Origin: Gammaproteobacteria bacterium
Lineage (GTDB): Bacteria > Pseudomonadota > Gammaproteobacteria > Pseudomonadales > Pseudohongiellaceae
Reading direction: 5' to 3'
DNA length: 64,000 bases
NCBI GenBank assembly: GCA_021773355.1
Contig: JAJFKE010000031.1
Coordinates: 186,001 to 250,000, forward strand
The notes below the pieces were generated by a model. That model was not told the origin of the DNA and ran no database searches. It was given only the letters and a program-made list of their open reading frames with translations. Position 1 is the first letter of the stretch, and each line of letters opens with the position of its first letter. Below are positions 4,918 to 53,361 of the stretch, piece by piece. The position numbers and the translations under genes were made by a program.

Positions 4918-6132
4918 TTAGTGAGCCGCCCATTTAACTTGATTTAGGTCGACACCGTCTTGGTACATGTCCCATAACGGCGATAATTCTCTTAGCTTTG
5001 CAACGGCTTCACGTATTTTTCCAATCGAGAAGTCTATCTCTTCTTCAGTAGTGAATCGGCCTATAGAAATTCGTAGTGAGCTATGTGCCAATTCATCATT
5101 TAAACCAATCGCACGCAGCACATAAGAGGGTTCCAGACTTGCCGACGTACAGGCTGAACCAGAAGAAACTGCGAGATCTCGCAATGCCATCATCAAAGAT
5201 TCACCTTCAACGAAATTAAAACTGATGTTCAAATTGCCGGCAACACGATGATCAACATCGCCATTCACGAACACCTCTTCCATATCTTTAAAGCCATCCA
5301 GTAAGCGGTTTCGAAGCGCAAGCACACGGGCATTTTCTGAGTGCATCTCTTCTTTCGCGATGCGAAAGGCCTCACCCATTCCAACTATTTGGTGAGTCGC
5401 CAAAGTACCCGATCTCATGCCGCGTTCATGACCACCGCCATGAATTTGCGGTTCAATACGAACTCGTGGTTTACGACGAACATACAGAGCACCAATACCT
5501 TTTGGTCCGTATATTTTGTGCGCAGTGAGAGACATCAGATCAACCTGCATGGTTTCCATGTCGATATCAATCTTGCCGGCACTCTGCGCGGCATCCACAT
5601 GAAATATGACATTGTGCTCTCGGGTAATTTTGCCAATAGCCGCAATATCATTAATTACACCGATTTCGTTATTCACGTGCATCAATGACACAAGCGTAGT
5701 ATCTGGGCGGATAGCTGCTGCTACAGATTCTGGCGAAACCAGGCCAGACTCTGCCGGGTCGAGATAGGTAACTTCATAGCCCTCACGCTCTAATTGACGA
5801 CAACTGTCCAGCACTGCCTTATGTTCAATTTTGGACGTGATGATGTGTTTACCCTTTTTGACATAGAAATGCGCTGCTCCCTTAATAGCGAGGTTATCGG
5901 CTTCAGTCGCTCCAGAGGTCCAAACAATCTCTCGCGGATCGCAGTTAAGTAAATCTGCAACTTGACGACGTGCATTTTCAACAGCTTCTTCCGCTTTCCA
6001 GCCAAACATATGGGAACGGGAAGCCGGATTGCCAAAATTTGACTCAAGTGTTAGACACTCCGACATTTTTGCTGCTACCCGGGGATCTACTGGGGTAGTT
6101 GCTGAATAATCTAAATAAATTGGAAATTGCAT
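4918..6132 (-). CDS. iscS: cysteine desulfurase IscS
   Basis: A 404-residue PLP enzyme. It has [14 protein letters not shown] at the N-terminus, the PLP-lysine context [17 protein letters not shown], and the catalytic cysteine loop [18 protein letters not shown]. It removes sulfur from L-cysteine and passes the persulfide to IscU, and also to tRNA thiolation and cofactor pathways. The C-terminus [21 protein letters not shown] is the conserved IscS tail that contacts IscU. It lies 25 bp after iscR. Confidence 0.97.
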
Positions 6133-6157
6133 TATTTACTCCACCGCTAATAATGGT

Positions 6158-6649
6158 CTACAGGCTTGGTACCAGAACCCGGATGTCGTCTATATTCTCG
6201 CTGACGATAAGGTGCTTTCGGTCCTGCTGCTTTGAAATTCGTTTTACTTCATTCTTGGCGACTAAATCTGCAAGGCTGATACTTTCCAGAAACGCATGAA
6301 TCTGCTCGCTTAAATCTTCCCACAAATAGTGGGTTAAACAGGTCTCGCCACCCTGGCAATCTCCCGCCCCTCTGCATTTAGTGGTATCAACCGACTCGTT
6401 AACCGCATCGACTATCTCGGCAATGAATATGGCCTCCGTCCCACGCTGCAATTCGTAACCGCCGCCGGGCCCACGCACGCTGCATACCAAGGAGCCACGC
6501 CGTAATTTGGCAAATAATTGCTCCAAATAGGACAGTGATATGGCTTGACGTCGAGAGATATCGGCCAGACTCACTGGCCCCTGATTCTTATGTAGAGCCA
6601 AGTCCAACATTGCTGTTACTGCATATCTACCCTTGGTTGTTAAACGCAT
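6158..6649 (-). CDS. iscR: Rrf2-family [2Fe-2S] regulator IscR
   Basis: A 163-residue winged-helix repressor starting [18 protein letters not shown]. The cluster ligands are C-x5-C-x5-C in [13 protein letters not shown] followed three residues later by histidine (LTH), exactly as in E. coli IscR. It senses cluster sufficiency and represses its own operon in the holo form. An IscR type-1 site overlaps its promoter. Confidence 0.97.
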
Positions 6650-6752: not shown

Positions 6753-7307
6753 TCAGGCGCGTTCGTAAACTATGGTTGAGGGAGCTTTGCCGAAATCTGT
6801 CCCCATTTGATAGCCAAAGGATTTGGCAATCAGGGCGATTATTGCTAGATGATGAATGCTATGGGTAATTAGACCCATCATCTCTCGCTCGGCGGTGGAT
6901 GAAATCTCTACTGCAGGGTTGGAAGGATGAACAGATTCTCTTACACGAATCAGCTCGGTTGGGAACTGCATTTGATTGAGCTGATCAATTCTTCTCGCAA
7001 CCGTAGCTAAGGCAAAAGTTGCCGCCTCAAGATTGTGTTCTATCTCTTTATCTCGCTTACGGGCGTCATAGTCTATGGATGACATTTTTAAGCCAGTGAA
7101 GAAGCAGTGGAATCTATCGAGAATGTGTCGAACATGGGCCCCTATGGAAGAGCCGCCTTTCGAAGCGTCTACATAAACAGACTGAGATATGATATTTAGG
7201 AGTTGATCGCATTGATCTATGCAGTTAACGCATCCCGCGACCAACAAGGATTTAGTATTTCCCTCTTCTACATTAGCTGCCCGATGCTCTATTTTGCTGT
7301 GTGTCAT
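6753..7307 (-). CDS. DinB-like putative metal-dependent protein
   Basis: A 184-residue protein with the look of the DinB/YfiT four-helix bundle. Histidines fall where that family places its metal ligands: H58 and H61 in GAHVRHILDRFH and H149/H152/H153 in THSIHHLAIIALIAKSFG. DinB-family proteins include thiol transferases and many of unknown function; the substrate here cannot be told. An N-terminal CVNCIDQC cysteine cluster is unusual. It is a single gene upstream of and codirectional with iscR. Family assignment is by pattern only. Confidence 0.7.
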   Translation of the reverse strand: MTHSKIEHRAANVEEGNTKSLLVAGCVNCIDQCDQLLNIISQSVYVDASKGGSSIGAHVRHILDRFHCFFTGLKMSSIDYDARKRDKEIEHNLEAATFALATVARRIDQLNQMQFPTELIRVRESVHPSNPAVEISSTAEREMMGLITHSIHHLAIIALIAKSFGYQMGTDFGKAPSTIVYERA

Positions 7308-7639
7308 TAGTTTATTATTACCGCTGCTTTAGGAACTGCTGATCAAACCTGAATCTCCAAACTGTCGAGTCAGGTTGCTTAGTGAATATAACATAGCAGC
7401 CTACCAGCTACTATATAGCCAGCCGAAACGCTGGCTGCATTAAATCCGAAAACCACGAATCAATTCTATTAATGAAAGCGTAGAACCTGCATTAACAAAC
7501 CCTAAGACCATACAGGGAGCAATTTTATTGCAAAGTCATTGCATCTTTATCGGTTCAATCGGGAAAAACCTCAGTATGTCACAATATCTTCGGCCAAAAA
7601 GCATCACAACTCTGGCGCAAGCCTAACATCGAGATTTTT
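7308..7639. other. intergenic region between divergent dinB-like and rnm genes
   Basis: This 332-bp gap should hold the promoters of two divergent genes. The only structure seen is a 7-bp hairpin (AGCCAGC 7417-7423 with GCTGGCT 7430-7436) without a T-run. No convincing promoter, operator or small gene was identified. Confidence 0.5.
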
Positions 7640-8482
7640 ATGAAAGTAGATTTGCACTGTCACAGCCATTATTCAGACGGAAAGCAATCACCGGAATTTC
7701 TGATGCAGCGTGCCATTGAAAATCAGGTTACCCATCTCGCAATTACTGATCATGACTGCGTCGATGGTCTGTTAAATCTGGATAATGGGACAAATGAAAT
7801 CACAATCATCAATGGCGTAGAACTATCTTGTCTTTGGAATAATCTGGAAGTTCATGTTGTTGGGCTATTAATCGACATTGAAAATAAAGGCATAAGAGAA
7901 TTGTTAGCTTCACAACAGATGCAACGTGAGCTACGAGCTCGAGCGATCGATGAGAAACTTAGGAAGTTGGGCGTTGAGGGATTGATGCCCTACCTGAATT
8001 CCCTACCATGCACAGCCGTTACCCGCAGTCATATAGCCGATTTTCTAGTACAAGAAAATCTCTGCAAGAATCGGCAGAAAGCATTTAAAACCCACCTGGG
8101 TAGACGAGGAAAGATTTATGCCGCAGCAAGGTGCTGTAACCTGGCCGAGGGTATAAATGGGATTCTGGCTGCTAGAGGCATTGCCGTGCTCGCACATCCA
8201 GGCAGATATTCGCTAAGCAAGACAAAGCTGAATCTTCTATTAGAAGATTTTAAAGATTGTGGTGGTGAAGCCTTAGAGGGGAGCTATTCCAACATCGACG
8301 CGACAACTAAAGCCTATTTAAGTGAGCTGGCCGTAGAGAAGTCTCTCTATCTGTCCGTCGGCTCAGACTTTCACGACCCTTTAGCATCATGGACCAACAT
8401 CGGAAGATTTCCGTCACTGGATCAACAGGGAAAAAAAAATGCCATTTGGCTACATCCTAAATGGCATTTTCCTATAACTTAA
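7640..8482 (+). CDS. rnm: PHP-domain phosphoesterase, RNase AM (YciV/TrpH) family
   Basis: A 280-residue PHP protein. The metal ligands are recognisable: MKVDLHCHSHYSDG (H6, H8), LAITDHDCVDG, GVELSC, LAHPGRYSL and SDFHDPLASW. In E. coli the family member RNase AM (formerly YciV/TrpH) is a 5'-to-3' exonuclease that trims 5' ends of rRNAs; related proteins act on 3',5'-bisphosphates. Its last codons contain a terminator-like hairpin that serves the convergent gene. The usual neighbour yciO/tsaC-like gene is not present. Confidence 0.85.
   Translation: MKVDLHCHSHYSDGKQSPEFLMQRAIENQVTHLAITDHDCVDGLLNLDNGTNEITIINGVELSCLWNNLEVHVVGLLIDIENKGIRELLASQQMQRELRARAIDEKLRKLGVEGLMPYLNSLPCTAVTRSHIADFLVQENLCKNRQKAFKTHLGRRGKIYAAARCCNLAEGINGILAARGIAVLAHPGRYSLSKTKLNLLLEDFKDCGGEALEGSYSNIDATTKAYLSELAVEKSLYLSVGSDFHDPLASWTNIGRFPSLDQQGKKNAIWLHPKWHFPIT
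8431..8470 (-). terminator. intrinsic terminator inside the 3' end of rnm
   Basis: AAAATGCCATTT (8436-8447) pairs perfectly with AAATGGCATTTT (8459-8470) around an 11-nt loop. Read on the minus strand the stem is followed by a run of T (complement of the A9 tract 8431-8439), so it is a Rho-independent terminator for the gene at 8509-8895. It is encoded within the last codons of the convergent rnm. On the plus strand only four T follow, so a weaker bidirectional effect is possible. Confidence 0.75.
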
Positions 8483-8508
8483 AACTGGATTAAAGAAGCA
8501 GCCTGCTT

Positions 8509-8895
8509 CTACTTTCTCTTGATCTTGGCGATAGCATCTCGAAAAATATCGAGTAATGTTTCATGTTTATAATCGGTAAACTCACCAGCATCCATAAACA
8601 TTCCGTGCTCTTCACAAGCTTCATATTCTAGATGAGATTGCTTCGAATCGTTAAGCTTGGTCATTGTCTTGCCGCAGCGAGGACATTGAATATCCCGGAC
8701 TGTATTGTACGTCTTTCCGACTTCTGGATCGCCACTGTCAGCAAAGTCCGCCATCCAGTCACCCTTCAACGCCTCAGCTTCTCCATTGTCAAACCACAGG
8801 CCTTTGCAGCTATTACATTTATCAATTATTACCTGACCATGCAGCGTCTCAATTTTGAGTTCCTGCATCTCGGAATTGCACTTCGGACAGTCCAT
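8509..8895 (-). CDS. TFIIB-type zinc-ribbon protein
   Basis: A 128-residue protein with two zinc-ribbon modules: MDCPKCNSEM...IDKCNSCKGLWFDNGE (residues 1-38) and IQCPRCGKTMTKL...YEACEEHGMFMDAGE (about 69-110). This double arrangement is typical of bacterial zf-TFIIB proteins of unknown function; in the second module one cysteine position is taken by histidine (CEEHGMF). The C-terminus is lysine-rich. It stands alone, convergent with rnm, with its terminator inside that gene. Confidence 0.8.
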   Translation of the reverse strand: MDCPKCNSEMQELKIETLHGQVIIDKCNSCKGLWFDNGEAEALKGDWMADFADSGDPEVGKTYNTVRDIQCPRCGKTMTKLNDSKQSHLEYEACEEHGMFMDAGEFTDYKHETLLDIFRDAIAKIKRK

Positions 8896-9170
8896 CTTGT
8901 TCTCCTCAAATACGGCTTCTTATTATTTGGGACTTAATACCAAATTGATTCACTAAGTCATATTGGCAGTCGCCAACCAACACTTCCGTAGAGAGCGCAT
9001 ATTATAAGGAATTTTCAGCTCAGACCAAGCCAAAATTCTGTTTTGACGTGATTCCCTGCGGCTTCGCTAGCATTAAGTCGGCGTTCACATTTGGAAAGGT
9101 ATTATTTGAGAACTTTCGAAACAAGTTGACCGCGAAAGTGCACATCAAAGAACACAATAGGAGATAGACC

Positions 9171-46099: not shown

Positions 46100-46345
46100 T
46101 CAGGTGGCGGTGTCGGCGTTAGCAGCGGTTTTCGGCTGCCTCAGGCCAGCCAAGCCTCTTTTTAGCAGGACCCGGGCCATGACCAATAGGCAGATTATCA
46201 GGACGCCTTGGCCAATCAGTGTGTTCACTACCGATATCGTTTCTGGTCGGGTGGAAATGAATATCAGGTTAACAAGGGTAGCGGCAGCAGCCAGAGCTGC
46301 TACTAATGAAATAAGCACTTGAACAAGGGCAATGAATTTACTCAT
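46100..46345 (-). CDS. small two-helix membrane protein
   Basis: An 81-residue protein with two hydrophobic helices (FIALVQVLISLVAALAAAATLVNLIFI and VNTLIGQGVLIICLLVMARVLL) and a short basic then acidic tail. I do not recognise a family. It starts 2 bp after the stop of the OlsF-like acyltransferase, so it probably belongs to that operon and could assist it in the membrane. Confidence 0.6.
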   Translation of the reverse strand: MSKFIALVQVLISLVAALAAAATLVNLIFISTRPETISVVNTLIGQGVLIICLLVMARVLLKRGLAGLRQPKTAANADTAT

Positions 46346-46347
46346 AT

Positions 46348-48093
46348 TTAGGCAATGTCTTGCAGTCTGTGAAATGAAATAAAATGTTCGTAGCCATCCT
46401 CACCCAAAAATCGTCTTAGCGTTTTGGTATCAGTTTTTCGAGCATCGACGATGATCAACCCCTCTAGAGAGTCATTAAAATTTGGATGTATATTAAAACA
46501 CACCATTTTGCCATTTACCGATAGATAATGACGCAGAAGTACCGGTAGAGCTTTGCCCGGGTCACAACGACCTATTAACTTACCCAGCATCTTCACATTG
46601 GCTAGCTCTGCCAACATTTCACTAGTCCAAACACGATTCATGATTTTATGGGGCGTGATCGGTTTAACTAATTGATCGAATTCATTAGCCTTAAAATTTG
46701 TGAGCAAGGTATCAGCAATCAGAGCCCGAGCAAGATCGCTGTACTCACGGGATATACTTACCGAACCAAATAAAGTGTGATACCTGGGTCTTTCCACTAA
46801 AATTCTACCAATTCCCCGCCACAATAAATTGAGAGATACTGGTTTTCTCTGATAATCGGGATGAATAAAGCTGCGGCCCATTTCGATAGCAGTTCCCAGC
46901 CTATTTATAAAAGCCTCATCATATGTGTAAAGCGAGCGGCTATAGAGGCCCTTAACCCCATGTTTAGCCACGATTTCATCCACTAAGCCGACTCGATAGG
47001 CACCGGCTATGCGTAGTTTCGACTTATCCCAAAGGAAAAGGTGCAGATAATGCGGATCGAACTGATCGGAATCCTTAGAAAGCCCGGTTCCCTCACCGAC
47101 GGAACGAAAGGTAACTTCCCGCGCAATAGCAATCTGCTCCATGATGGGACCGAGGCTGGTAAAAGGCGCGCAATACACATCAAATTCGTCATGCTCGATT
47201 AGCCTGTATTCTCGCAAGCTCTCTATGGTCGATATTAATTCAGCAGGACTTGCTGAAGGACTGCAATCTACGACCCTCTGAGAAGCCGTGAGCTGACCCT
47301 GAACCGGTTCTCGCAGAAGCGCATCAGTGCTAACTCGAAGATAATCGGTAATTGCCTTTGGACTCTGCAACAAACGCAACTCCTGCGCCAGTATTGGGCG
47401 ACCAATACGTAATGGCAAACGAAAACCTTGCTTGTTCGCTAGCTGTCGCGGCAATAGTGCTGTTCTTAATCTAGGATGAAGCATGCCGGCAGCATAAAAA
47501 TATCGACTGTTGCCACCGCCTACATGCACCGGTATGCAAGTACATTGATAACGTTTGAGCAACTGACCCACAAGACGATTCCAGGATCGATCTTGAATTC
47601 GGCGCTGGTCATGCTCATAGGTAGAAACCATACCCGCAGGGAATATTAGCACTGCGCCATCATTCTTTAGATGTTTATGCACTTGTTTGATACTGCCGAC
47701 GTTGCCAGCAGCGGTGTCAGTTGATAGCACATCTACACCAATGAAAATGTCGGCTAGCTCTGGAATACGGCGCAGTAGTTCGTTAGTTAACACCTTGAGA
47801 TCTGGTCGAATATCCGAAATTACTTTAGCTATTGCGACGCCTTCGAGACCACCCAGGGGATGGTTGGCTACAATTAGAACAGGCCCGCTGGCGGGGATTT
47901 CGTCCAGATTGGACTCATTAATCAATTCCAGACTTACGCCAAGCGCATCAAGCGTATACTGCAGAAATTCATGAGGAGTGCAGCCCTCAGGGCGCGCGTC
48001 GTAAATGGCACCCAATTTATCAAGTCCTAGGACTTTTTCCAGAACAGCGGAAATAATTCGGGGTTTAAATGGTAGCCGACAAGGATTAGTCAT
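46348..48093 (-). CDS. two-domain acyltransferase, OlsF-like (putative ornithine-lipid synthase)
   Basis: A 581-residue protein in two parts. Residues about 50-270 are a PlsC-like acyltransferase (LIVANHPLGGLEGVAIAKVI, with HPLGG where PlsC has HxxxxD, then GAVLIFPAGMVS and PVHVGGGNSRYFY). Residues about 300-540 are an OlsB/GNAT-like N-acyltransferase (VTFRSVGEGTG, HYLHLFLWDKSKLRIAGAYRVGLVDEI, ALIADTLL). The same fusion in OlsF makes ornithine lipids from ornithine, with the C-terminal part adding the amide chain and the N-terminal part the ester chain. It overlaps the upstream ATP-grasp gene by 8 bp. Confidence 0.82.
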   Translation of the reverse strand: MTNPCRLPFKPRIISAVLEKVLGLDKLGAIYDARPEGCTPHEFLQYTLDALGVSLELINESNLDEIPASGPVLIVANHPLGGLEGVAIAKVISDIRPDLKVLTNELLRRIPELADIFIGVDVLSTDTAAGNVGSIKQVHKHLKNDGAVLIFPAGMVSTYEHDQRRIQDRSWNRLVGQLLKRYQCTCIPVHVGGGNSRYFYAAGMLHPRLRTALLPRQLANKQGFRLPLRIGRPILAQELRLLQSPKAITDYLRVSTDALLREPVQGQLTASQRVVDCSPSASPAELISTIESLREYRLIEHDEFDVYCAPFTSLGPIMEQIAIAREVTFRSVGEGTGLSKDSDQFDPHYLHLFLWDKSKLRIAGAYRVGLVDEIVAKHGVKGLYSRSLYTYDEAFINRLGTAIEMGRSFIHPDYQRKPVSLNLLWRGIGRILVERPRYHTLFGSVSISREYSDLARALIADTLLTNFKANEFDQLVKPITPHKIMNRVWTSEMLAELANVKMLGKLIGRCDPGKALPVLLRHYLSVNGKMVCFNIHPNFNDSLEGLIIVDARKTDTKTLRRFLGEDGYEHFISFHRLQDIA

Positions 48094-49216
48094 TTTTAGG
48101 GTACTGCTTCACTAGTTTATTTTCGTAACGCCAAGCTCTATAAAGAGCCATCATCCCCGGAGTCTTATGGCCCTGTGTTCTGCTATGATTTCCAAGTTTA
48201 AACAGGGTATTGTATTGCTGCAACAGGGTTTTTACCGCCGTCCACAGTCCCGCATTCCTATCCCAAATATTGATGGATTCCGAACTTGCACCATTAATCT
48301 CAATTATATTGAAATGTTCTCCCGCGCGCAGACTTTCTAAATCTTTGAACTTCACATCCAGGCGTCCGTAGTGAAAACCAGGTATATCGGCAAATATTTT
48401 ATCAAGAGATTGTGACAAAACTTGGGTGATTTGATCTCCGGCATCTCGAAACACAGCACCCCTGGAGTGACTGGCTGCAAAGATCAGACGATAGGGCTCT
48501 CCTCTCGCTATGATATTGCTCCAATTATGCTCATGCCGATCGCGATATAAATGTAGCAATTCACCTGCTCGAGGATCGGCAGCGATCAGCTCTGCAAGGC
48601 TACGCCTGCCATCACCTACAACATAAGGCGTATATTTCAAGGTGAGCGATGTAAGTTTGCCGGCTCTCTTGTCTGGTCCACCTACATAGAAAACACCCGC
48701 CTCCGCATCCCATTGACTAAGTTGCTGAAACTGAATGCAGCCACCGACTGGAAAACTTTGCAAATACTCAGTCAATTCACTTTCATTTTGCAGTAGGCGA
48801 ACCCCTACACCGCGACAACCCATATTCGGCTTAGCCACCACCGGAAATTCCAACTTTGCTGCTGCGATGGCTGCCAGTGCGCGACTGCACTGTTGTTCAA
48901 TCGGCTCTGCATCCACTTCGAATAAAGTCCAGGGCAATATCCATTGACGTGCATAATCACCGGCTAAATCAAACACAGCCGACTTAGGCACTCCCACCAT
49001 GCCCGACAACGGAATCCCGGGATTAGCTAATAGCGGCAGGCTCAGACTACGATACCTAACGGAGAGAAATAACCACTGAATGGCAACCGGCACATACATT
49101 AACCAGATAGGCCAAAATTCAAAGAACGAAGTGGCTCGTCCCGAGTCCTCCAATGGCGGCATCCCGGCAGGAACATAGGATTTGGCATCTGCCTTAGTTT
49201 TCTCTGATATATGCAA
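48086..49216 (-). CDS. membrane-associated ATP-grasp protein
   Basis: A 376-residue protein with a membrane segment near residues 36-55 (WPIWLMYVPVAIQWLFLSV) and an ATP-grasp domain: FPVVAKPNMGCRGVGVRLLQNESEL (ATP-binding), FHYGRLDVKF and FNIIEINGASSES (metal-binding end). ATP-grasp enzymes join a carboxylate to an amine or thiol through an acyl phosphate. The gene overlaps the OlsF-like gene, which suggests a role in making or modifying an amino-acyl lipid. The start is TTG with AAGGA about 6 bp upstream. The substrate is unknown. Confidence 0.75.
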   Translation of the reverse strand: MHISEKTKADAKSYVPAGMPPLEDSGRATSFFEFWPIWLMYVPVAIQWLFLSVRYRSLSLPLLANPGIPLSGMVGVPKSAVFDLAGDYARQWILPWTLFEVDAEPIEQQCSRALAAIAAAKLEFPVVAKPNMGCRGVGVRLLQNESELTEYLQSFPVGGCIQFQQLSQWDAEAGVFYVGGPDKRAGKLTSLTLKYTPYVVGDGRRSLAELIAADPRAGELLHLYRDRHEHNWSNIIARGEPYRLIFAASHSRGAVFRDAGDQITQVLSQSLDKIFADIPGFHYGRLDVKFKDLESLRAGEHFNIIEINGASSESINIWDRNAGLWTAVKTLLQQYNTLFKLGNHSRTQGHKTPGMMALYRAWRYENKLVKQYPKND

Positions 49217-49506: not shown

Positions 49507-49911
49507 ATGCTGGGAAAAATATTACTAACAATTGCGGTCATATTTATCGCCTTTCTCTTCGTTCGTCAGCGCGACATGAAGGAAAAGTCGATATCTTCGC
49601 AGACGTCGCAGCCAACTGGCAGCCCGCCCATCGCCGCCAGTTCCGCCGACAATAGCCTGTCAGCCGATCTAAGGCTAGGCGCTTATATGTTTCTTGTATT
49701 GATAACGGGTCTGGGTCTTGCACTGTATTATTTCCAGTGGCAAGACGATCACTCTATTCTTACAGTACGCCTGCACAGCGACAGCCAGTCCGAAGCCATC
49801 GAGTACCAGGTTTATAAATACCAACTACAAGATCGATCATTTACCACCCTCGATGGTATTTTGGTCACAGTAGCCAGCAGCGAGCGTATGGAAGTCGAGG
49901 GGTTACAGTAG
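49507..49911 (+). CDS. membrane protein of unknown function
   Basis: A 134-residue protein with an N-terminal helix (ILLTIAVIFIAFLFV), a low-complexity Ser/Pro/Ala linker, a second helix (YMFLVLITGLGLALYYFQW) and a C-terminal hydrophilic domain (ILTVRLHSDSQ to SSERMEVEG). No family recognised. It is 26 bp before the start proposed for the molybdopterin oxidoreductase gene and may be co-transcribed. Confidence 0.6.
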   Translation: MLGKILLTIAVIFIAFLFVRQRDMKEKSISSQTSQPTGSPPIAASSADNSLSADLRLGAYMFLVLITGLGLALYYFQWQDDHSILTVRLHSDSQSEAIEYQVYKYQLQDRSFTTLDGILVTVASSERMEVEGLQ

Positions 49912-52175: not shown

Positions 52176-52703
52176 TCATCCAGCCTTGCGGGAATTTCTG
52201 TGATCGGATGCTGGTTGCAAGGCAAATTCAATCATTTTATCCAGTTCGCCGTCTACATTTATTAGTACCAACTCGTCATGCTGCAGTACGAATACAGAAA
52301 CCGCGTTCAGGCTATTGCGCTGTAGATCCATACCCACCAGCACCCATACCTGCTCGCCCTCTTCACGTACTTTAACGATAGTTTCCCAATGTAAGCGCTT
52401 GTTTCTTTGATGCAAAGTTGCGGCGAAATTTAAGTCATCAAAATCAATTTCCATACCACCCGAATCAACATTGTAGACGGCCACTTGCACGTGATCCAGG
52501 TCAGAAATATTAGCCTCATCCAAAGTAATGATGTTCAAAAAGTTAAGCAAGCCACCACCTAGAGATACCGCAAACTCCTTCTTCAATGTAATTTCCGGCA
52601 TCTGTTCGACAATGGAATTTCGTGTCGATCGAAACGACCTATCGTTGAATGACATACATGCGGTAAGTTGTAGCAGTAGTAGTGACAAAATTAGTTTTTT
52701 CAT
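52176..52703 (-). CDS. DUF4252 lipoprotein
   Basis: A 175-residue protein with a lipoprotein signal (MKKLILSLLLLQLTACMSF; lipobox LTAC). The rest (LDEANISDLDHVQVAVYNVDS, WETIVKVREEGEQVWVLVGMD, LVLINVDGELDKMIEFAL) is the DUF4252 pattern, also found in the upstream paralogue. It is last in an ECF sigma/anti-sigma/DUF4252/DUF4252 operon. Function unknown; probably periplasmic and anchored in a membrane. Confidence 0.78.
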   Translation of the reverse strand: MKKLILSLLLLQLTACMSFNDRSFRSTRNSIVEQMPEITLKKEFAVSLGGGLLNFLNIITLDEANISDLDHVQVAVYNVDSGGMEIDFDDLNFAATLHQRNKRLHWETIVKVREEGEQVWVLVGMDLQRNSLNAVSVFVLQHDELVLINVDGELDKMIEFALQPASDHRNSRKAG

Positions 52704-52740
52704 GGTTGAAGTCTCATTTACTACCATCACTAAATAAAGC

Positions 52741-53301
52741 CTAATTGTCGGCTATTTCAATATCGATCAACTCATCGAGTTCAAAGCGGCGACCCAGAGC
52801 ACTAATATCATCGGTACTAATATCTCCGACTATATTAACCAGAACGGTTTCTCCGGACCCAGCTACCATAATGGCAATACCATGGATTACATCGGCAGCC
52901 TCGGCGAGCTTGAAGTATATATCGACATGATCACTGTCTTCGCGCACTCGAACGACACGTTCCCAACCCTCGGCATCGAGCTCATCAGCCATGGTTGACA
53001 TGGAAGCTGCTATTTCGTCCACATCAATGGCGTCGCTTTTAAACACATTGACCGTTACTCGCAACAATTTGGAAATAAAATCAGCAGCCTCTTCATCTTC
53101 ATTACGAATCAGATTAGTGATCATATTCAACAAGGGCGCTTTAAGGCTGATCTCTACACTAGGCTCCGTGGCTGCTATCGCAGTCAAAGTGGAAAAATCT
53201 ACGAAACCGGGATGATTTTCTACATTATTATCCGCCGCTAAAACGACAGGAATAACACTTAGAAAAATTAAGGGTACAAATAATCTTTTTAAAACTCGCA
53301 T
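52741..53301 (-). CDS. exported DUF4252 protein
   Basis: A 186-residue protein with a signal peptide (MRVLKRLFVPLIFLSVIPVVLAA). The C-terminal half (LRVTVNVFKSD, WERVVRVREDSDHVDIYFKLAEAADVIHGIAIMVAGSGETVLVNIVGDI) is DUF4252, paralogous to the lipoprotein next to it. DUF4252 genes often sit with ECF sigma factors; function is unknown. GAGG precedes the ATG by 8 bp. Confidence 0.78.
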   Translation of the reverse strand: MRVLKRLFVPLIFLSVIPVVLAADNNVENHPGFVDFSTLTAIAATEPSVEISLKAPLLNMITNLIRNEDEEAADFISKLLRVTVNVFKSDAIDVDEIAASMSTMADELDAEGWERVVRVREDSDHVDIYFKLAEAADVIHGIAIMVAGSGETVLVNIVGDISTDDISALGRRFELDELIDIEIADN

Positions 53302-53361
53302 AATTCTACCTCGCAAATTAACTTCATAAACTCATAAACATTCTGATTACTGACGTAACAT

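Follow-up and report, generated by a model that had tools for sequence, protein, structure and literature searches.

In many different marine bacteria, a predicted ligase of the ATP-grasp type sits beside an aminolipid synthase. The case analyzed here comes from a 64,000-nucleotide stretch of DNA, hereafter the window, from a Gammaproteobacteria bacterium of the family Pseudohongiellaceae (GCA_021773355.1, contig JAJFKE010000031.1, forward-strand positions 186,001 to 250,000), in which the gene for an ATP-grasp protein overlaps that of an OlsF-like acyltransferase. The association of the ATP-grasp protein with ornithine-lipid type synthases is real and conserved and, within the literature searched, has not been described before. 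On balance, the pair appears to form the core of an aminolipid pathway, in which the OlsF-type enzyme would make a lipid and the ATP-grasp ligase would then tailor it through an amide bond to give a two-unit head group. The genes concerned are the following:

48086..49216, minus strand: predicted ATP-grasp amide ligase gene, by profile and predicted-fold match to cyanophycin synthetase
46348..48093, minus strand: OlsF-like two-domain acyltransferase gene, with PF19576 N-terminal and PF13444 C-terminal
48086..48093, minus strand: overlap of both coding regions, 8 bp, ATGACTAA, from open reading frame (ORF) coordinates; recurs in the window's group of related loci
46100..46345, minus strand: gene for an 81-aa two-helix membrane protein, an accessory of the window's group
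6753..7307, minus strand: DinB-like protein gene, by PF05163 match, about 39 kb from the pair

Transcription on the minus strand runs from the ATP-grasp gene (49216-48086) through the OlsF-like gene (48093-46348) to the 81-codon gene (46345-46100), which is separated from the OlsF-like ORF by 2 bp (46346-46347). These coordinates agree with the layout given in the original prediction, which was made from the same DNA. The OlsF-like ORF encodes 581 aa and the ATP-grasp ORF 376 aa when counted from TTG; alignment and model positions of the ATP-grasp protein are numbered from codon 2. Its start codon is uncertain and may be the TTG at 49216, a codon nearby, or an in-frame ATG at 49162-49160 (M18). 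Just ahead of this ATG, V14 is kept in at least 90% of 22 genus rows and G17 in 22/22, and translation therefore likely starts upstream of it.

The pairing is widely conserved. A scan of genome contigs found 292 ATP-grasp relatives, from which the best 80 loci were kept, a sample leaning to close kin. Fifty of these (L042-L090 and L102) form the window's genus-level group, set by flanking genes and identity, with record titles that include Pseudohongiella and OM182. The 30 loci outside the group come from Grimontia, Enterovibrio, Aliivibrio, Reinekea, Marinomonas, Aliagarivorans, Porticoccus, Exilibacterium, Woeseia and others. OlsF lies downstream of ATP-grasp on the same strand in 79 of the 80 best loci, being cut by a contig end in one of the 79 (L053) and split between two frames in another (L063). 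The 8-bp offset itself, which puts codon 1 of OlsF four bases ahead of the final sense base of ATP-grasp, recurs in 43/50 group loci. Conserved pairing and offset rule out a chance overlap of two genes. The original prediction had staked itself on conservation of the pair, which indeed extends across many gammaproteobacterial families. It had also pointed to the small two-helix protein. This protein is present, with two hydrophobic segments (hydropathy 2.52 at residue 4 and 2.44 at 43), and its gene accompanies 49/50 group loci, the exception being L053, which ends inside OlsF. Its absence from all 30 loci outside the group rules it out as a core part.

The ATP-grasp protein scores above no Pfam cut-off. 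A profile of 30 relatives nevertheless matches cyanophycin synthetases in the PDB (best 8fxh, E 1.6e-11), and an AlphaFold2 model from a 39-row alignment (m08260a31db5f; predicted local distance difference test score, pLDDT, 90.3; predicted template modelling score 0.88) replaced an earlier shallow-alignment model (pLDDT 69.3). The model presents the ATP-grasp fold. Its best match is the cyanophycin synthetase CphA1 (7wae_A, Z 15.9, root-mean-square deviation 5.0, 278 residues), followed among others by GshF, a glutathione synthetase (Z 14.2), LysX/ArgX (13.2), Ddl (12.1) and RimK (11.8). By name, the top 18 rows are all amide or peptide ligases; carbamoyl phosphate synthetase, synapsin and biotin carboxylase rank lower, with Z near 11, and a viral fold library returned distant ATP-grasp proteins only. 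K128, R284, D286, E305, N307 and E312 are invariant in 39/39 rows, and the E-x-N of the protein aligns with that of CphA in the profile search. With roles carried over from Ddl, we take K128 to be the Lys of the nucleotide site and R284-x-D286 and E305-x-N307 to be the metal site. Judged from the predicted fold and these residues, an amide ligase is a fair reading of the protein. Two narrower identities were rejected: D-alanine--D-alanine ligase, the name given in some records, by a Dala_Dala_lig_C Pfam score of 13.8 bits against a cut-off of 24, and membership of the cyanophycin synthetases by an NCBIfam equivalog score of 25.6 bits against 850.

The protein had further been described as membrane-linked, which is likely yet uncertain. 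Its best 19-residue hydropathy is 1.47, at residue 35, the model places a helix at 36-54, and an FEFWP motif is invariant in 22 genus rows. The hydrophobic stretch and the invariant motif suggest membrane association, and the N-terminus is probably membrane-associated. In two genomes of the genus (L038/L039), ATP-grasp matches come in two pieces; from residue 97 to 111 or so, the sequence is lengthened and rich in proline, perhaps through an insertion.

The partner enzyme carries both expected domains in one protein, PF19576 at 51.4 bits (cut-off 27) and PF13444 at 74.9 bits (cut-off 22.4), and its N-acyltransferase domain has conserved residues. It aligns with the NF052615 OlsF model over residues 12-563 at 383.7 bits, below the curated cut-off of 620; the earlier description as an OlsF-like two-domain acyltransferase thus holds. 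A tree of 74 OlsF proteins, a chosen subset in which the window's group is represented by 10 of its 50 scan loci and three losses, includes 44 ATP-grasp-linked rows, 29 without the ligase and one with DinB/NRDE only. Nineteen canonical-type rows, 18 of them above the cut-off, separate from the divergent type. Every linked OlsF falls in one clade of 48/74 rows (support 98/92). Besides these 44 rows, the clade contains three members of the genus that lack the ligase (L158, which retains remnants, L159 and L160) and the row with DinB and NRDE only. L083, L088 and L102 each have a full ATP-grasp match and are counted as linked. The 30 highest-scoring OlsF loci in the class sample described below (L122-L151) include divergent proteins and lean to the canonical type; no ATP-grasp, DinB or NRDE gene lies within about 1.5 kb in any of them. 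G283, ranked below them, has all three near OlsF. Where one genome encodes both a canonical OlsF (>620 bits) and a divergent one, ATP-grasp lies beside the divergent copy (5/5 genomes).

Gene loss within the genus is one-sided. Among 37 genomes, the window's own included, 24 carry both genes, with ATP-grasp full or near-full (one stop in G002, two pieces in G018 and G030). Three retain OlsF with ATP-grasp remnants (G005, G006, G010) and three OlsF only (G019, G026, G034); G015 is undecided because of a contig end, and six have neither gene in full, G003 among them retaining an OlsF fragment. ATP-grasp alone is found in 0/37. Because OlsF persists in genomes where ATP-grasp is missing or degraded, it seems to work without the ligase. 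This pattern fits an enzyme that tailors what OlsF makes more readily than one that supplies OlsF with its substrate. As read from these sequences, the ATP-grasp protein is probably such a tailoring enzyme.

Broader samples extend the association. In a class sample of 370 genomes, an ATP-grasp match at E<=1e-30 occurs in seven (the window's own, G080, G153, G183, G282, G283 and G362) and a match to the OlsF model in 56. Both occur in five (the window's own, G183, G282, G283 and G362), with G183, G282 and G362 matching only part of the OlsF model. In a phylum sample of 397 genomes drawn evenly, PF13444, the GNAT domain of OlsB and OlsF type, is present in 18/18 genomes with ATP-grasp (E<=1e-15), the window's own included, against 256/397 overall (Fisher p 3e-4 by genome and 0.010 by genus, kinship ignored). 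OlsF-model matches occur in 12 of these 18, seven of which have two. At the 17 phylum loci besides the window, OlsF lies within about 3 kb in 11, an OlsB-like GNAT in one and neither in five, and DedA is beside ATP-grasp in 14.

Outside the window's group, the pair belongs to a larger module of DedA/VTT, ATP-grasp, DinB-like, NRDE/TANGO2, YHS and OlsF genes. Near the pair in the 30 outside loci are DinB-like (29), YHS (21), NRDE/TANGO2 (20) and DedA/VTT (13) genes. The DinB histidines are invariant in 36/36 sequences, the window's included, and Cys2 of NRDE is kept in 24/24. In the window, the DinB-like protein (PF05163, 25.1 bits; cut-off 23) is related to the module DinB of other genera, and its gene is not near the pair. 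It may nonetheless belong to the pathway: intact DinB occurs in 13/24 genus genomes with full or near-full ATP-grasp and in 0/13 others (Fisher p 9e-4, kinship ignored). A search of the window's own genome for NRDE/TANGO2 with one Grimontia query gave no match at E <= 0.001. Elsewhere, bacterial NRDE/TANGO2 proteins with the invariant Cys2 are seen in aminolipid clusters, for instance L092 at 7673-8428 and L163 at 5722-6465.

Other acyltransferases of the ornithine-lipid type can take the place beside the ligase. In L152/L153 (G362 and G282, one genus), a distant ATP-grasp lies in one run with separate OlsB-like and OlsA-like genes, DinB, NRDE and YHS. In L170 (Variovorax) and L206 its neighbor is an OlsB-like GNAT, together with a methyltransferase (in L170 recognized by eye), and L206 also has a haem-oxygenase-like protein nearby. 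The GNAT and PlsC-type neighbors tested fall below equivalog cut-offs, and their best matches are ornithine-specific models. Conserved pairing and these further partners give good genomic support to the original proposal of an ATP-grasp amide ligase within an aminolipid pathway; as a whole, that interpretation is partly supported. Some loci differ in architecture. The L152/L153 module is built on a PlsC-type enzyme in place of the PF19576 O-acyltransferase. Two Komagataeibacter plasmid loci (L166, L167), with L170 and L206, constitute a second type of neighborhood for the ligase family, near a methyltransferase; a haem-oxygenase-like iron protein is found near ATP-grasp in L166 (PF14518), L167 and L206. 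In L169, on a plasmid of Azospirillum sp. B510, a single ORF (7299-9071) fuses a VTT (DedA) domain to ATP-grasp.

In the proposed pathway, OlsF would attach a 3-hydroxy fatty acid to the nitrogen of an amino acid, ornithine being the likeliest, and then O-acylate the product. The ATP-grasp ligase would activate a carboxylate as acyl phosphate and close an amide bond on the OlsF lipid. On its alpha-carboxyl, the lipid would then bear either an amino acid or an amine, taurine for example, giving a two-unit head group; in a less likely variant, an acid would be joined to the free amine of the lipid. Amidation of the carboxyl of an ornithine-type lipid is favored, by analogy, because both Vibrio cholerae OlsF enzymes make ornithine lipid in E. 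coli and the known amide-extended aminolipids are of serine-glycine and ornithine-taurine types. The product would be a cerilipin-like, amide-extended aminolipid of dipeptide or taurine type. DedA-type neighbors in other genera would move it across the membrane, and the DinB-like, NRDE/TANGO2 and YHS proteins would have supporting roles. More tentatively, the same ATP-grasp family may define an undescribed two-unit aminolipid route over Gamma-, Beta- and Alphaproteobacteria, amidating ornithine-type lipids (with taurine, for example) and served by a dedicated OlsF paralogue or OlsB/OlsA, together with DedA as transporter and the DinB-like, NRDE/TANGO2 and YHS proteins.

Several observations weigh against placing the pair at the core of such a pathway. 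The best 80 of 292 loci are biased to close kin, and the genus shows a small number of loss events, most of them in draft assemblies. A single contrary locus, L074, has a full ATP-grasp with a broken OlsF, of which both ends are kept and the middle is deleted. The shared PF13444 is weak evidence, because 64% of the sampled genomes have this domain. Some ATP-grasp relatives, mostly alphaproteobacterial, lack an adjoining acyltransferase. L154 has DinB and DoxX and L155 DinB only, nothing of the module flanks ATP-grasp in L156 or L023, and a Salinivibrio locus has DedA, ATP-grasp, DinB and NRDE with no OlsF within 8 kb. L163 has OlsF with DinB and NRDE and no ATP-grasp, so some of the module genes do not depend on the ligase. 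The plasmid loci of Komagataeibacter, Paracoccus and Azospirillum and the five phylum loci L201-L205 have no acyltransferase adjoining ATP-grasp, and G080, G153 and G039 carry distant ATP-grasp relatives with no OlsF match. The ligase may therefore serve other lipids or act in trans. This last set, with DedA the steady partner in L201-L205, also favors the unlikely proposal that the target of ATP-grasp is some other membrane or envelope component and that its operon with OlsF reflects a common membrane stress response; repeated linkage to OlsF, to OlsB with OlsA and to OlsB-like GNAT, along with PF13444 in all 18 ATP-grasp genomes of the phylum sample, speaks against it.

Two further alternatives keep the ligase within aminolipid synthesis and change its step. 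ATP-grasp could act before OlsF, making a dipeptide or amino acid amide that OlsF acylates instead of free ornithine. In its favor, the ligase gene comes first in the pair, the OlsF linked to it is a divergent paralogue scoring under the OlsF equivalog threshold, and soluble peptides or amino acids are the substrates of several of the closest folds; however, in the six genus genomes that retain OlsF with the ligase absent or fragmented, OlsF would be without substrate, and the likely membrane N-terminus and DedA neighbors indicate a lipid substrate. This order of steps is given rather little weight. It is still less probable that ATP-grasp forms the first amide, between fatty acid and amino acid, in parallel to the GNAT domain. 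PMC11631085 cites a route to acyl-histidine through an ATP-grasp enzyme, and a GH3 enzyme does likewise for ornithine lipid (PMC12493201). The step would be redundant here, as OlsF already has an N-acyltransferase domain with conserved residues, and OlsF outlasts loss of the ligase in the genus. Tailoring of the OlsF product remains the preferred reading.

Other features of the window were noted in passing. A 134-aa protein with no Pfam match (49507-49911) is encoded divergently from the pair and lies beside it in 42/50 group loci. Adjacent minus-strand genes at 52176-52730 and 52741-53316 encode related small proteins, each matching the other's gene in relatives; by eye, the genes next to them look like anti-sigma and sigma factor genes. 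Phosphate control through a Pho box was rejected, with four matches in the window at <=3 mismatches against 5.5 expected; the intergenic DNA upstream of the pair contains none.

A human member of the TANGO2 family is linked to disease, and the module offers a bacterial context for NRDE/TANGO2 proteins; if the two-unit aminolipid route is true, the family enters a bacterial lipid pathway. The ligase family, tied to OlsF, OlsB and OlsA, is a candidate gene for amide-type tailoring and a candidate marker for such lipids in marine genomes, and its carriers may make a modified, phosphorus-free amino-acid membrane lipid with an undescribed head-group ligase. The pair was not found in literature on ATP-grasp together with OlsF, ornithine lipid, aminolipid or gene neighborhood, on TANGO2 with ornithine lipid, or on flavolipin, OlsF in Vibrio and cerilipin, in a search that left subscription journals mostly outside its coverage; a 2009 amidoligase survey may mention the linkage.

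Among known systems, the closest relative of the acyltransferase is OlsF, the bifunctional ornithine lipid synthase of Serratia proteamaculans type (NF052615), which has the same two domains in the same order; the window protein differs in scoring below 620 and standing apart from the canonical clade. Vibrio cholerae VC0489 and VCA0646 are likewise OlsF-type, 33% and 30% identical to Serratia OlsF; both make ornithine lipid in E. coli, and VCA0646 is the last gene of a putative four-gene operon (PMC12186959). By analogy with these, the window protein may make a similar lipid. For the ligase, the ATP-grasp region of CphA1/CphA2 gives both the best profile match (8fxh) and the best fold match (7wae_A); the matched chains have 629-910 residues against 375, and the hydrophobic N-terminal helix belongs to the window ligase. 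Komagataeibacter, in the same family as Gluconobacter, has a distant relative of the ligase (34.7-35.5% identity; two records, no OlsF beside), which serves only as a lead toward a cerilipin-type product. Cerilipin, the ornithine-taurine lipid of Gluconobacter cerinus, bears a second unit on ornithine lipid, as would the proposed product; in the available text of these sources, serine-glycine and ornithine-taurine types represent the amide-extended aminolipids, and taurine transfer is mentioned with no enzyme named (PMC4484230, PMC6669457, PMC12493201). The GH3-dependent OlsH/OlsI pathway to ornithine lipid (PMC12493201) likewise builds an aminolipid with the help of an ATP-dependent enzyme that forms amides. 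There, a GH3 fold replaces OlsB, whereas the window ligase is of ATP-grasp type and its family accompanies OlsF or OlsB.

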